DNA from: Alphaproteobacteria bacterium
Lineage (GTDB): Bacteria; Pseudomonadota; Alphaproteobacteria; UBA2966; CAIVPW01
Assembly: GCA_947481575.1 (NCBI GenBank)
Contig: CANKGV010000019.1
Location: 1-45,624 of the forward strand
DNA length: 45,624 nucleotides
Direction of reading: 5' to 3'
Shown: one piece after another, positions 25,077 through 29,446 of the stretch
Layout: the number at the start of each line of letters is the position of its first letter
Position numbering within the stretch: the stretch's first letter is position 1
Position numbers and translations under genes: made by a program
The notes under the pieces: model-generated
The model's database searches: none
Told to the model about the DNA's origin: nothing
Seen by the model: the letters and a program-made list of their open reading frames with translations, nothing else

Positions 25077-25766
25077 ATGCTATTTTTCGGTATGCTCACA
25101 GCTTCCCGCCGAAGCGCCGCTTTCTTCATTACCCTGGGCGGCGGCATCGTCCTGGCTCTCCGCGTTGTCGCCGATAGCATCGGGCGCACGACCTTGATTG
25201 ACGATGCCCTACAGGCCGCTGGGCGGGTCGGCCATTTCCTCTCATGGATAGGGGATCAGCCGGGCCTGGTGATCTACACGGGAGGGGCCACGGCGCTCTT
25301 TGTTGGAGCCCTGTTACTGGCTCCCTGGGAAGTGCTCGCCGCGAGGATACTCGGGCGCCATGAGCGGGCTGGGCGTTTGGCGGCCCTCGGGGCGGAATGT
25401 GTGGAGATAAGCGAGGTGCTTCTAAAGCACTGGGCCAACAAGCACGGCGCATTTCCCAAGGAGGTTGATAAGGTCTACTCGCTCAAACTCAGCCTTATGG
25501 GTGAGGGCTTTAACGTCCCAATCCAGTCCCCCACCGTTGATGCGCCGAAACTTGACTGGCTGTTCTACGACCTCGGAACCTACTTCAGCCTCGTCGGCAC
25601 GCTGTTGGCTGATGGCCATATCCCGGCAGCATACCGGGCCGCTAACCGGGACGCTCAGCGGATGAACAACCGCCTCAATGAACTCCTTTCGGCACCTACC
25701 GCGGGTCAAGACGGAGATCCCGCACCTCGGCCGCAACAAGCGCCTGGACTAGAAAAACAGCCGTGA
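25077..25766 (+). CDS. Membrane protein of unknown function
   Basis: 229 residues. Two membrane helices lie at about 12-32 (AAFFITLGGGIVLALRV) and 63-85 (LVIYTGGATALFVGALLLAP). A soluble, mostly helical cytoplasmic part follows, with a polar Pro-rich tail. There is no known domain. An ATG at 25092 is a possible later start. Codon use is less GC-biased than in the flanking housekeeping genes, consistent with acquired DNA. The 3' end overlaps the convergent DUF6471 gene by 71 bp, which is unusual and suggests rearrangement. Confidence 0.6.
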   Translation: MLFFGMLTASRRSAAFFITLGGGIVLALRVVADSIGRTTLIDDALQAAGRVGHFLSWIGDQPGLVIYTGGATALFVGALLLAPWEVLAARILGRHERAGRLAALGAECVEISEVLLKHWANKHGAFPKEVDKVYSLKLSLMGEGFNVPIQSPTVDAPKLDWLFYDLGTYFSLVGTLLADGHIPAAYRAANRDAQRMNNRLNELLSAPTAGQDGDPAPRPQQAPGLEKQP

Positions 25767-25941
25767 ACCCGCCCCGGCTGATCTTGTTCTTTATGTTCGC
25801 CTCGGTTTCGTGAATCCCCATCTTTCCGAGCCGTGCGGCAAGGTCGCCGTACGTGACTCCGTGGCGCTTCAATTCCGACTTGAGAAGGTTCTTAACCCGG
25901 CGCCGGATGGAAGTAGGGACGCACCACCACGTAAGCGGCAC
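25696..25941 (-). CDS. DUF6471 protein, N-terminus altered by IS relic
   Basis: 81 residues in the frame. Residues of about 15-78 (VKNLLKSELKRHGVTYGDLA, then NIKNKISRGGFTAVFLVQ) match the small DUF6471 family, a likely XRE-like helix-turn-helix domain. The first 11 residues (MPLTWWCVPTS) are unlike the family and lie antisense to the IS1595 transposase fragment. The original start therefore appears lost, and the present ATG at 25941 lies inside IS DNA. Expression is uncertain. Confidence 0.7.
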   Translation of the reverse strand: MPLTWWCVPTSIRRRVKNLLKSELKRHGVTYGDLAARLGKMGIHETEANIKNKISRGGFTAVFLVQALVAAEVRDLRLDPR

Positions 25942-26092
25942 GTACCTAGCCGCCTATGCGAACGAAGCGGCATGGCGCGAGTACAACCGCCGCGAGGCGA
26001 ACGGCACGCAGTACGGGATGGTCGTTAGCGCCGCGCTGGCGCACCCGGTGTCGGGACAGTGGAAGGGGTACTGGCAGCGCTCAGCGCGCTAG
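25907..26092 (+). pseudogene. IS1595-family (ISXO2-like) transposase fragment
   Basis: The C-terminal remnant only: GTHHHVSGTYLAAYANEAAWR followed by YNRREANG, matching the end of the ISXO2-like domain (Y/H-HHVS..L..Y..E...R.N.R). The catalytic Asp residues and zinc ribbon of the full transposase (about 300 residues) are missing. The frame ends at 26092, 12 bp past the end of the convergent 61-residue gene. Confidence 0.65.
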
Positions 26093-26266
26093 CTTGAACG
26101 GAAAGAAGTTCTGGGTCGGAACCACAGACTTGTCGTCCTTGTCCGACGCCTTCGCAAGAGTCCCAGTCCCGGTTGGGGTTTGGAACGCATAGTGCGAACC
26201 CACTGCGGTGTAGGGCTTTGGAGACTGCTCTGGTGTCGAGGCCGAACTCTCTGCCGCCTTCTTCAT
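26081..26266 (-). CDS. 61-residue polar protein coupled to Ntn-hydrolase gene
   Basis: The ATG at 26266 overlaps the TGA of the Ntn-hydrolase gene as ATGA, so translation is probably coupled. The protein is Ser/Thr/Lys-rich and low in hydrophobics (KKAAESSASTPEQSPKPYT, SDKDDKSVVPTQ), with an aromatic/basic end NFFPFKLAR. It is predicted largely disordered, with no known family, Cys pair or signal peptide. The coupling suggests a partner, substrate or adaptor of the hydrolase; that is inference. Unlike Pup it lacks a C-terminal GGE/GGQ. Confidence 0.55.
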   Translation of the reverse strand: MKKAAESSASTPEQSPKPYTAVGSHYAFQTPTGTGTLAKASDKDDKSVVPTQNFFPFKLAR

Positions 26267-27105
26267 TCGTGTCCCTCTGGGTTTAAGACGGTATCGAAGT
26301 AGTGCTTTCGCCTGACCCACTTGAAGCCCTCGTGCTTCGTTATGGCGGCGCTTTCAATCGGGCCACCCACCGTGGCAGCTCCGCGTTTAAACCTCGTAAA
26401 CATGGCGGTCGTATGGACGATAAACTCGGCAAAATCTATCGCGTCTTGAATCGGCATGGGAGCCTCAACTAGAGAGACTCCCAACTTATTTCCAATCGCC
26501 GTTACCGCCCCGGGGACATCGGCATCGGGCATCCCCAGCGACTTCAGAGCGTCGCCCAAGCCCATGCCGTGACCATTGAGCAGCCGGGTAAACACTTCAG
26601 GTTCACCACCGGCATACGCGTTTGTGACTCCTCTGGCCATCAATCGTACTGGGGCCGGGCAATTCCCCTGATTGATTTCGATCAGCCAAACCTCGCTCAA
26701 CGGCTCGTTGGCTGAGTATCCAGCAACGACAAAGCCAAAGATTGGGCCGGTGCCGACGGGAATATTTAGGCTCTTGTAGTGCTCGTCAAAGAAGAACTCC
26801 CTCGTCCTATTGCAGACCTCCTCGACGGTCACCTTTTCATCGTCCAGTGCCCAGCCTTTGTGGGCAGCATCATCCCCAGCAAAACGGCGGCGCAAGTCTT
26901 TCACTAGCGTGGAAATGGAACTGGCACCGAACGAGCCCATGCCATAGGTCAGGCCACCAATCGGTAGGCCCTTCTTGAGATTGAATATCTTGTTCGCGTT
27001 GTTGTAGACGTTGACGACTTGGTCGTTTCCGTCAAACAGAGTTGTGGCGCTATCAGAGGCGAGAACGACCCCGTCGTGAACCTGGACAGCGATCGCGATC
27101 GTCAT
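26263..27105 (-). CDS. Proteasome-beta-like Ntn-hydrolase-fold protein
   Basis: 280 residues from ATG 27105 with GGAGG eight bases upstream. The start MTIAIAVQVHDGVVLASDS is the proteasome/HslV/Anbu beta-strand pattern. After Met removal Thr becomes residue 1, and Asp falls at mature position 17, the standard catalytic Asp. Lys in NNANKIF (mature 38) can serve as the Lys33 equivalent after a short insertion. The downstream segments GGLTYGMGSFGASSISTLV and GFVVAGYSA fit the fold. It is longer than HslV (about 175) and the C-terminal ESAAITKHEGFKWVRRKHY is not HslV- or Anbu-like. It is likely a self-assembling cytoplasmic threonine hydrolase of unknown substrate, with no ATPase gene nearby. Confidence 0.72.
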   Translation of the reverse strand: MTIAIAVQVHDGVVLASDSATTLFDGNDQVVNVYNNANKIFNLKKGLPIGGLTYGMGSFGASSISTLVKDLRRRFAGDDAAHKGWALDDEKVTVEEVCNRTREFFFDEHYKSLNIPVGTGPIFGFVVAGYSANEPLSEVWLIEINQGNCPAPVRLMARGVTNAYAGGEPEVFTRLLNGHGMGLGDALKSLGMPDADVPGAVTAIGNKLGVSLVEAPMPIQDAIDFAEFIVHTTAMFTRFKRGAATVGGPIESAAITKHEGFKWVRRKHYFDTVLNPEGHE

Positions 27106-27185
27106 CTCGGCCGCCTCCGAATAGTTCCGACCAGCATACCTGGGAGTGAATCGATAACGGGTCTGCGAGTCAACTCACGGTAGAG

Positions 27186-27653
27186 TCAGCGCACCACCTC
27201 CCACAACATGAACATTCCAGGTCCCTGACTCGCCTTAGTCAGTCCCGCGTCCCTGGCGTGCCGCAACGACACCCCCACCCGTTTGACCATCAACGACAAC
27301 AGCCGCTGATCGGCCCGGTCTAGGGCGCGTTCAACGAGCATCTGTACCGCCAGTTCTCTGGTGGTCATTGGCTCGCTGGCCGTCCGCAGGATGCTCAGCA
27401 CGATGCGGGACATTTCGCCCCGGTGTGCCCAATCCGGTGGGGCGCGGAACGTGCGCGGCTTGATGCGCTCTAGGACTACGGACGGGTCTATCGTCTGGAT
27501 CGTCGCGTCCAGGCTGGCGAGTTGCTCAACCAGCGTCCGCAGCCGTTGGTGGGTGCGCTCTATGACGAAACCGACCGGCCCAAGGTCGTCCGCCTGCGCC
27601 ACGCGAAATTCTGAAAGCGCGACGCCCGCGTCCGGGCTATCTATCGCGAGCAT
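27186..27653 (-). CDS. Unknown protein, possible winged-helix C-terminus
   Basis: 155 residues from ATG 27653; GTG 27689 is an alternative. The N-terminal half includes DLGPVGFVIERTHQRLRTLVEQL, a helical segment. The C-terminal half has SRIVLSILRTASEPMTTRELAVQMLVE and SLMVKRVGVSLRHARD, laid out like a winged helix with a beta wing ending GMFMLWEVV. I recall close relatives as hypothetical proteins in other Alphaproteobacteria. DNA binding is an inference from pattern. It is divergent from the short frame at 27693. Confidence 0.65.
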   Translation of the reverse strand: MLAIDSPDAGVALSEFRVAQADDLGPVGFVIERTHQRLRTLVEQLASLDATIQTIDPSVVLERIKPRTFRAPPDWAHRGEMSRIVLSILRTASEPMTTRELAVQMLVERALDRADQRLLSLMVKRVGVSLRHARDAGLTKASQGPGMFMLWEVVR

Positions 27654-27692
27654 CCTAGCGCGGTGGCAGAAGTGACCGGCGACAATCACAGT

Positions 27693-28381: not shown

Positions 28382-28603
28382 GGCGCGACGGATTTTTGGT
28401 TGGCGCCCGTTAGTCCTGGGATTGTTGTAGCCACTGCGCCCGTGCGCCACCGGTAGATTTCACCGGTGTGCAACCGGGCAGACCCGCCGGGCGGCCGTGC
28501 CCGTGGCTATTGGCCGGACCGGCGAACTGTGACTACACCATGGCGTCCCGCCCGGTTGCGGGGGCGGGACTTTGGTAGAAAAAAAATTCTGGGAGAGAAC
28601 GTC

Positions 28604-28927
28604 ATGAAGATGCTTGTTGGCGCGCTGGTGGCGGCGTCGGTTTTGGCTCCGTTTGCCGCGCTGGCCGCGGAAATCGGCGGCCCGACGAACGGCACGGTTA
28701 ACGTCGTCGTCGAATCGTGGGATGCGGGCAAGCGCCTGCTGACCATTAAGTCCGGCAACCAGGTGCCGTACTCGTTCATGGGCTGCACGGTGGACGCCAA
28801 CATCGGCGTGCCGGGCACCATCTCGCAGGGCCGGCCGGTCTATCTGCAGTACACGGGCCCCGGCCCGGGCGCTGCCGGCGGACCGTCGAACAACGGCAAC
28901 GTCTGCCAGCAGATCGAGCTGAAGTAG
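28604..28927 (+). CDS. Small secreted protein, tandem copy A1
   Basis: 107 residues with signal peptide (1-21, ending ALAA). The mature part is EIGGPTNGTVNVVVESWDAG then KRLLTIKSGNQVPYSFMGC and a Gly/Pro-rich loop TGPGPGAAGGPSN before a C-terminal CQQIELK. Two Cys may form a disulfide. The alternation suggests a small beta barrel in the periplasm. It is nearly identical to the gene at 29123-29446. The RBS GGGAGAG precedes ATG 28604. The function is unknown. Confidence 0.75.
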   Translation: MKMLVGALVAASVLAPFAALAAEIGGPTNGTVNVVVESWDAGKRLLTIKSGNQVPYSFMGCTVDANIGVPGTISQGRPVYLQYTGPGPGAAGGPSNNGNVCQQIELK

Positions 28928-29122: not shown

Positions 29123-29446
29123 ATGAAGACTCTTATTAGCGCGCTGGTGGCAGCGTCGTTCTTGGCTCCGTGCGCGGTTCTGGCCGCGGAAATCGGCGGC
29201 CCGACGAACGGCACCGTGAACGTCGTCGTTGAATCGTGGGATGCGGGCAAGCGCCTGCTGACCATTAAGTCGGGCAACCAGGTCCCGTACTCGATGATGG
29301 GCTGCAAGGTTCCGGACTCGATTGGCGTGCCGGGGAGCATCGCCAAGGGCCGTCCGGTCTATCTGCAGTACACGGGCCCCGGCCCGGGCGCTGCGGGCGG
29401 TCCGTCGAACGACACCAACGTCTGCCAGCAGATCGAGCTGAAGTAA
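29123..29446 (+). CDS. Small secreted protein, tandem copy A2
   Basis: 107 residues, paralogue of 28604-28927. It has the same signal-peptide layout, the identical core NGTVNVVVESWDAGKRLLT and the same TGPGPGAAGGPSN loop, differing mainly in the signal peptide and the segment around CKVPDSIGVPGSIAKG. The RBS GGGAGGAG precedes ATG 29123. It is separated from copy A1 by 195 bp with its own hairpin, so the two may be separately transcribed. Confidence 0.75.
   Translation: MKTLISALVAASFLAPCAVLAAEIGGPTNGTVNVVVESWDAGKRLLTIKSGNQVPYSMMGCKVPDSIGVPGSIAKGRPVYLQYTGPGPGAAGGPSNDTNVCQQIELK

Follow-up and report, generated by a model that had tools for sequence, protein, structure and literature searches.

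Gene pair and its surroundings

The window, i.e., the whole stretch of 45,624 nucleotides that was analysed, carries on its minus strand a pair of overlapping genes at 26081-27105, exactly where an earlier note made from the letters alone had placed them. The first gene encodes a proteasome-like hydrolase, and the second, which encodes a small polar protein (the partner), starts inside the stop codon of the first, as that note had also read. The features of the pair are as follows.

26263..27105 (stop codon included), minus strand: proteasome-like N-terminal threonine hydrolase, 280 aa (ORF, AlphaFold2 (AF2) model, 76 aligned relatives)
27114..27118, minus strand: ribosome-binding site GGAGG of the hydrolase, 8 nt 5' of the ATG (read directly)
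27100..27102, minus strand: codon of Thr2, the predicted N-terminal nucleophile once Met is removed (VIA-align ranges and conservation)
27052..27054, minus strand: codon of Asp18, corresponding to proteasome Asp17 (invariant in 76 relatives)
26989..26991, minus strand: codon of Lys39, presumed to correspond to proteasome Lys33 (invariant in 76 relatives; spacing off by five residues)
26081..26266 (stop codon included), minus strand: polar partner protein, 61 aa, translationally coupled (ORF; positional equivalents in most relatives)
26263..26266, minus strand: ATGA shared by the stop of the hydrolase and the start of the partner (read directly)
26180..26191, minus strand: YAFQ, which fits the partner motif Y-x-[YF]-[QR] and precedes TPTGTGT (partner motif count)

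The hydrolase begins with MTIAIAVQVHDGVVLASDS. The GC content is 57-59% across the region compared with 65-75% in the flanks, and a match was found in only 3 of the 61 related genomes searched, the host being counted among the three, with 0 matches in the 14 other genomes of the host's family or order. Because of the GC dip and the rarity among related genomes, the hydrolase gene is taken to be accessory and was probably acquired, which agrees with the accessory region proposed earlier. The next minus-strand gene beyond the partner, about 140 nt away (window 25696-25941), is DUF6471; no toxin gene lies directly 3' of the partner, and the window copy is thus the toxin-less form of the arrangement described below. 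The promoter and terminator scan gave nothing beyond chance level.

Several other genes were observed around the pair and around the hydrolase genes of relatives (loci of relatives are given as L numbers). A DUF6471 homolog is also present near the hydrolase in L022 (Sphingopyxis). Immediately upstream of the window hydrolase, a 167-aa ORF without a Pfam match (27186-27689, minus strand) has homologs in the same position relative to the hydrolase in L022 and L041. Two tandem, near-alike small proteins with signal-peptide-like starts are encoded on the plus strand at 28600-28927 and 29123-29446, apparently by recent duplication. In addition, a transposase-like gene (zinc-ribbon, IS1595-like by eye) is homologous across L022, L041, L078, L086 and L091, where it lies on the opposite strand about 1-2.3 kb downstream of the hydrolase, and this common gene is a sign of shared mobile islands.

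Fold and active site of the hydrolase

The structure prediction that had been proposed as a check of the N-terminal nucleophile (Ntn) hydrolase fold supported it. The AF2 model, based on the 76 aligned sequences, reached a pLDDT of 94.5 and a pTM of 0.90, and Foldseek retrieved proteasome subunits with it (best E 1.9e-8; 540 chains at E <0.001). With VIA-align, the best structural match was Anbu (Z 20.6 over 204 residues, rmsd 2.6), and Z was about 19 against proteasome beta; residue 2 of the model pairs with residue 1 of the Anbu and proteasome beta chains in the aligned ranges. From the model we are confident that the predicted fold is the alpha-beta-beta-alpha Ntn fold of the proteasome beta/Anbu type.

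The residues proposed as a catalytic triad, Thr2, Asp18 and Lys39, are all present in the 280-residue ORF, and their conservation was borne out in the 76 relatives: Asp18, Ser19, Ala20 and Lys39 are invariant, and Thr2 is kept in at least 90%, with Ser in some, including an acidobacterial group. Methionine aminopeptidase normally removes a Met standing before Thr or Ser, and Met removal would therefore expose the nucleophile Thr2. The equation of the lysine with proteasome Lys33 is upheld by its invariance, whereas the spacing gives no support, since Lys39 is mature position 38 and thus five positions off.

Sequence similarity to known families was weak. Pfam PF00227 did not match the window hydrolase at E 10 and matched 24 of the 76 relatives weakly (best E 8.9e-5); TIGR03634 matched 26 of the 76, also weakly. 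Pfam, NCBIfam and PADLOC searches with the single window sequence gave nothing useful, and the PHROG family phrog_5990 (427 aa, function unknown) was matched and led to the long form of the hydrolase described in the last section.

Placement among proteasome homologs

The earlier view that the protein is neither HslV nor Anbu was supported at the sequence level. None of the Anbu, HslV or BPH chains among the PDB sequences was matched up to E 10 by phmmer or by profile search, and TIGR03692 (HslV) did not match the window hydrolase. HslV and BPH are, like the hydrolase, bacterial proteasome-like peptidases with Thr1/Asp/Lys, and Anbu is the nearest structure; however, Anbu has 17% identity to the hydrolase, and about 76 residues stay unaligned. 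Direct homology to HslV was rejected because the HslV of the host and the window hydrolase have no BLAST or profile similarity, and the hydrolase is not the HslV of this host, as a separate, normal hslV-hslU pair was found on another contig. Connectase, an archaeal proteasome-like protein ligase of high specificity (PMC8665760), was rejected on structural grounds: it lacks H1-H2 and has a two-helix S3/S4 insertion, and the hydrolase model shows the opposite on both, with helices 64-75 and 94-113 following the first sheet and none between strands 21-25 and 29-34.

The hydrolase had been called unclassified, and this is not supported because the family, as judged by likeness to the published description, very probably belongs to the PMI types of proteasome homologs that Fuchs, Alva and Lupas defined in 2021. 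That work described 22 new proteasome homologs; more than 20 of the proteasome-like families had no known function, and no informative genomic context was reported (PMC8665760). An H3/H4 insertion, which according to the same report could prevent double-ring layers, is typical of the PMI types, a point that bears on the self-compartmentalised enzyme suggested earlier. In the window hydrolase, helices 183-189 and 194-208 sit between helices 170-177 and 219-239, which are H3 and H4 by our own assignment, and these extra helices before the last long helix may correspond to the H3/H4 insertion, which PMI-2 has without a large pore-loop insertion. The listed spread of PMI-2 (Proteobacteria, Firmicutes, Actinobacteria, Bacteroidetes, PVC, other bacteria and Euryarchaeota) was also seen here, in Pseudomonadota, Bacillota, Actinomycetota, Bacteroidota, Planctomycetota, Methanomicrobiales and other bacteria; viral contigs carry some of the present relatives, whereas none are listed for PMI-2 (PMC8665760). 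The long form, which is carried by phages and has a large additional insert following its first helices, fits PMI-4 (PMC8665760). By description, we infer that the short form is PMI-2 and the long form PMI-4. The hydrolase family is thus known in outline, and the new part is its context, namely the coupled partner and the link to toxin-antitoxin (TA) genes, as PMC8665760 mentions neither an operon nor a toxin for the PMI types.

The coupled partner gene

For the survey of relatives, 128 genomic stretches encoding hydrolase relatives were collected, of which 80 were kept, together with 23 viral loci. The relatives occur in Pseudomonadota, Actinomycetota, Bacillota, Acidobacteriota, Chloroflexota, Planctomycetota, Gemmatimonadota, Nitrospinota, Bacteroidota, archaea and phages, and in most of them a short ORF begins no more than a few bases from the stop codon of the hydrolase. 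Under a strict rule (ATG start, Shine-Dalgarno sequence, 35-110 aa, offset of -20 to +20, no long ORF overlapped), a coupled short ORF was found in 51 of 94 relatives (54%), compared with 17 of 365 control genes taken from the same loci (4.7%; Fisher p 4e-27, with the kinship of the relatives uncorrected). In close pairs, dN/dS of the partner was 0.05 (L099/L103), 0.17 (L042/L059), 0.14 (L057/L062) and 0.29 (L082/L083), which indicates that the partner gene is under purifying selection, and the enrichment and this selection together argue that the 61-aa ORF is more than a chance ORF. As an internal negative control, ORFs obtained by the same picking procedure in Roseomonas-like relatives showed pN near pS.

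The suggestion of a dedicated small partner is therefore supported, and the partner can be described as a small, fast-evolving protein that is usually encoded with the hydrolase. It does not, however, always follow the hydrolase, a point on which a neighbourhood survey had been advised: the strict rule finds it in 54%, and it could not be recognised in a clade of Roseomonas-like and Polyangia hydrolases, where the hydrolase gene of the Roseomonas-like members is itself still under purifying selection. The Roseomonas-like loci without a partner are L044, L047, L050, L056, L058, L067, L069-L071 and L079-L081.

A short motif recurs among the partners. Y-x-[YF]-[QR], often preceding Gly/Ser-rich letters, was found in 23 of 76 non-redundant partners, compared with 0.7 expected from shuffles (maximum 4 in 1000 shuffles), and is missing from about 70% of the partners. 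The sequences are too short and divergent to show common ancestry of all partners. A Pup-like partner was rejected, since the window partner ends in KLAR and not in GGQ/GGE, and other partners end otherwise too.

Toxin-antitoxin genes in relatives

The main clue to a role is absent from the earlier note: in relatives, the place of the partner can be held by a type II antitoxin. A longer partner gene (76-135 aa) is often followed by the gene of a type II toxin, mostly with a 4-base overlap. The following toxins directly after the partner were recognised by Pfam above curated cut-offs, 14 in total.

PIN toxins: L005, L039, L042, L046, L131
PemK/MazF toxins: L009, L018, L031, L192
ParE-like or ParE/RelE toxins: L007, L049, L028, L038, L145

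In addition, L057, L059, L062 and L066 have PIN genes homologous to the Pfam-recognised PIN toxins, so that at least 18 relatives carry a toxin directly after the partner, and three unrelated toxin folds are represented. Two of these relatives, L145 and L192, come from a hydrolase group that is more distant and has Ser at position 2. In the first 104 loci, a toxin was directly downstream in 15 and one toxin-like gene was found elsewhere in 1.07 Mb, a background control that favours the result because the profiles were built from the same toxins. Strand and order were constant in the toxin-linked loci, the antitoxin started at or near the hydrolase stop, and none of these loci had an extra small gene between hydrolase and antitoxin. 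By position, therefore, the partner place appears to be occupied by a type II antitoxin in 18 relatives. The label antitoxin follows from this position and, for L049, from an antitoxin-like C-terminal helix; Pfam recognised no antitoxin family in the antitoxin-type partners.

The antitoxin-type partners also share sequence features with the small ones. A Y-x-Y core was found in 5 of 16 (L049 YHYQ, L131 YNYR, L038 YEY, L028 YNY and L031 YNY) compared with 1.2 expected (6 of 2000 shuffles), and three scored at p<0.01 with a held-out motif profile trained on small partners only. When the L049 hydrolase and partner were modelled by AF2 as one read-through chain (TAA and TGA read as residues), the N-terminal part of the partner including the motif was unstructured (pLDDT 34-55), the antitoxin-like C-terminal helix was its only ordered portion, and this chain gave no sign of docking. 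On the hydrolase tree, the toxin-linked state needs 10 changes; the strongly supported branches force only two, and repeated gain of the toxin link is for this reason not proven. Neither a proteasome homolog tied to a toxin-antitoxin system nor a family-wide coupled partner of proteasome homologs was found in the literature searched, with partial coverage of subscription papers and preprints.

Proposed mechanism and alternative explanations

What can be read from the sequences is the predicted fold, the triad, the coupling, the breadth of occurrence, the selection on the partner, the shared motif and, by position, the antitoxin at the partner place; the chemistry of the hydrolase and the direction of control we infer. 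We give roughly even chances to the reading that the hydrolase acts with a dedicated small ligand, a substrate or an inhibitor, and that in some lineages this ligand is the antitoxin encoded in a hydrolase-antitoxin-toxin operon. The pair would then be a mobile two-gene module of an Ntn threonine hydrolase and a cognate small disordered partner encoded by the coupled next gene. The hydrolase would specifically recognise a segment at the N-terminus of the partner, in many cases Y-x-Y-Q-like, and cleave or trim the partner under some trigger. If the partner also has an antitoxin tail, the toxin would be set free by this cleavage; in toxin-less copies, including that of the window, the partner would be a regulatory substrate or inhibitor that sets the activity of the hydrolase.

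There is a tested precedent for such cleavage. MaOC1 is a caspase homolog encoded ahead of a type II TA pair; it cleaves the free antitoxin and may release the toxin by cleaving this neighbouring antitoxin (PMC7935541). The order of protease, antitoxin and toxin genes is the same as here, and the proposed control would be analogous, but MaOC1 is an unrelated cysteine protease, its gene is separated from the antitoxin gene by repeats and 147 bp more, and it is a single case as opposed to an operon recurring across a family (PMC7935541).

These observations suggest that an orphan hydrolase family may control toxin-antitoxin switches. Going further, we propose tentatively, as a possibility that we rate somewhat below even, that the PMI-type hydrolases are the dedicated proteolytic control of undescribed mobile TA or phage-defence modules composed of hydrolase, partner or antitoxin, and an optional toxin. 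Such modules would include an antitoxin bearing a hydrolase-recognition segment that can be swapped among PIN, MazF and ParE/RelE toxins, and the widespread two-gene form would be the same switch without a resident toxin. The coupled partner and the recurrent TA linkage give one large orphan group of proteasome homologs a concrete, testable role, and if the proposal is true, a proteasome relative is a switch in toxin-antitoxin or phage-defence biology. A small self-contained system of this kind, with a 280-aa enzyme and a 45-75-aa ligand, would also lend itself to the study of how threonine peptidases acquire dedicated substrates in the absence of an unfoldase.

Other explanations appear less likely. 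The hydrolase could itself be a toxic effector protease acting against cell or phage proteins and the partner an antitoxin that plugs its active site, the loci with a classical toxin being composites in which one antitoxin restrains both. A coupled, small, disordered and fast-evolving second gene does recall type II modules, the majority of pairs have no toxin, and phages, satellite phages and plasmids carry the genes; however, the partner-less clade tolerates a lone hydrolase whose gene is under purifying selection, and the hydrolase was always first in the cases seen, whereas most type II modules have the reverse order. We regard this explanation as unlikely overall. For the window copy, a hydrolase with a regulatory substrate or inhibitor appears to be the best reading of the sequence, and a toxic protease with its antitoxin is the main rival. 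A protective role, in which the hydrolase guards or folds the antitoxin as the SecB-like chaperone of tripartite toxin-antitoxin-chaperone (TAC) systems does and catalysis matters little, takes its appeal from the similar logic of TAC, where a third gene is likewise linked to the antitoxin by a segment added to the latter. This segment is a C-terminal chaperone-addiction extension that TAC antitoxins need (PMC5105189, PMC6377645), and the third protein is a SecB-like chaperone, whereas here it is a proteasome-like hydrolase that is encoded first. Since a pure chaperone would not need a catalytic triad, and the triad is invariant or nearly so family-wide, we consider this role improbable.

The remaining alternatives concern the reaction and the linkage. 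That the hydrolase is a ligase or transpeptidase, joining the partner as a tag to proteins or processing it by peptide transfer, has a model in the high specificity of connectase (PMC8665760), and both the short linear partner motif and the lack of an AAA+ unfoldase associated with the hydrolase would suit it. This is nevertheless very improbable in our judgement, as connectase is without H1-H2, whereas the hydrolase model has both helices, and a tagging role does not predict linkage to antitoxins. Accidental neighbourhood, i.e., a general peptidase that happens to sit upstream of common TA modules, draws on the abundance of TA genes in environmental genomes of this kind and on the weak backbone of the hydrolase tree. 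We give little credence to it, because strand and order are constant, the antitoxin begins at or close to the stop of the hydrolase, the toxins have three unrelated folds and also occur in the distant hydrolase group, and only one toxin-like gene was seen elsewhere in the 1.07 Mb.

Long form and mobile carriage

In the long form, which is related to phrog_5990, the hydrolase has about 400-430 aa, and it aligned with the whole short form by hhalign at E 2e-22. It contains two additional segments, a large one that follows the first helices and a second one in the region preceding the last long helix. The long-form hydrolases have their own conserved partner of about 58 aa (49-58 aa in phage loci), in which the motif [EDA][FIVY][EQRK][RKH]x[FY][FLY]P was found in 10 of 21 compared with 0.00 in shuffles.

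This bacterial relative of the proteasome has spread horizontally. In an Escherichia coli H3 prophage (L203), the long form lies between the Q antiterminator and holin genes on the opposite strand, and related DNA was found in 22 of 5,426 E. coli genomes. The prophage-borne E. coli protein WP_000123148.1 is a long form whose partner has 49 aa. In the Streptococcus satellite phages L204 and L109, the annotation ends with the genes of the hydrolase and of a 55-58-aa protein, and in a Providencia phage (L110) the long-form hydrolase adjoins the lysis genes; the hydrolase is also plasmid-borne. These sites in phages and plasmids are typical cargo positions and fit a candidate role in defence or maintenance. 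On Rhizobium and Mesorhizobium plasmids (L116, L119 and L120), a multiubiquitin-domain gene and a ThiF-family E1-like gene were observed within a few kilobases of the long form.
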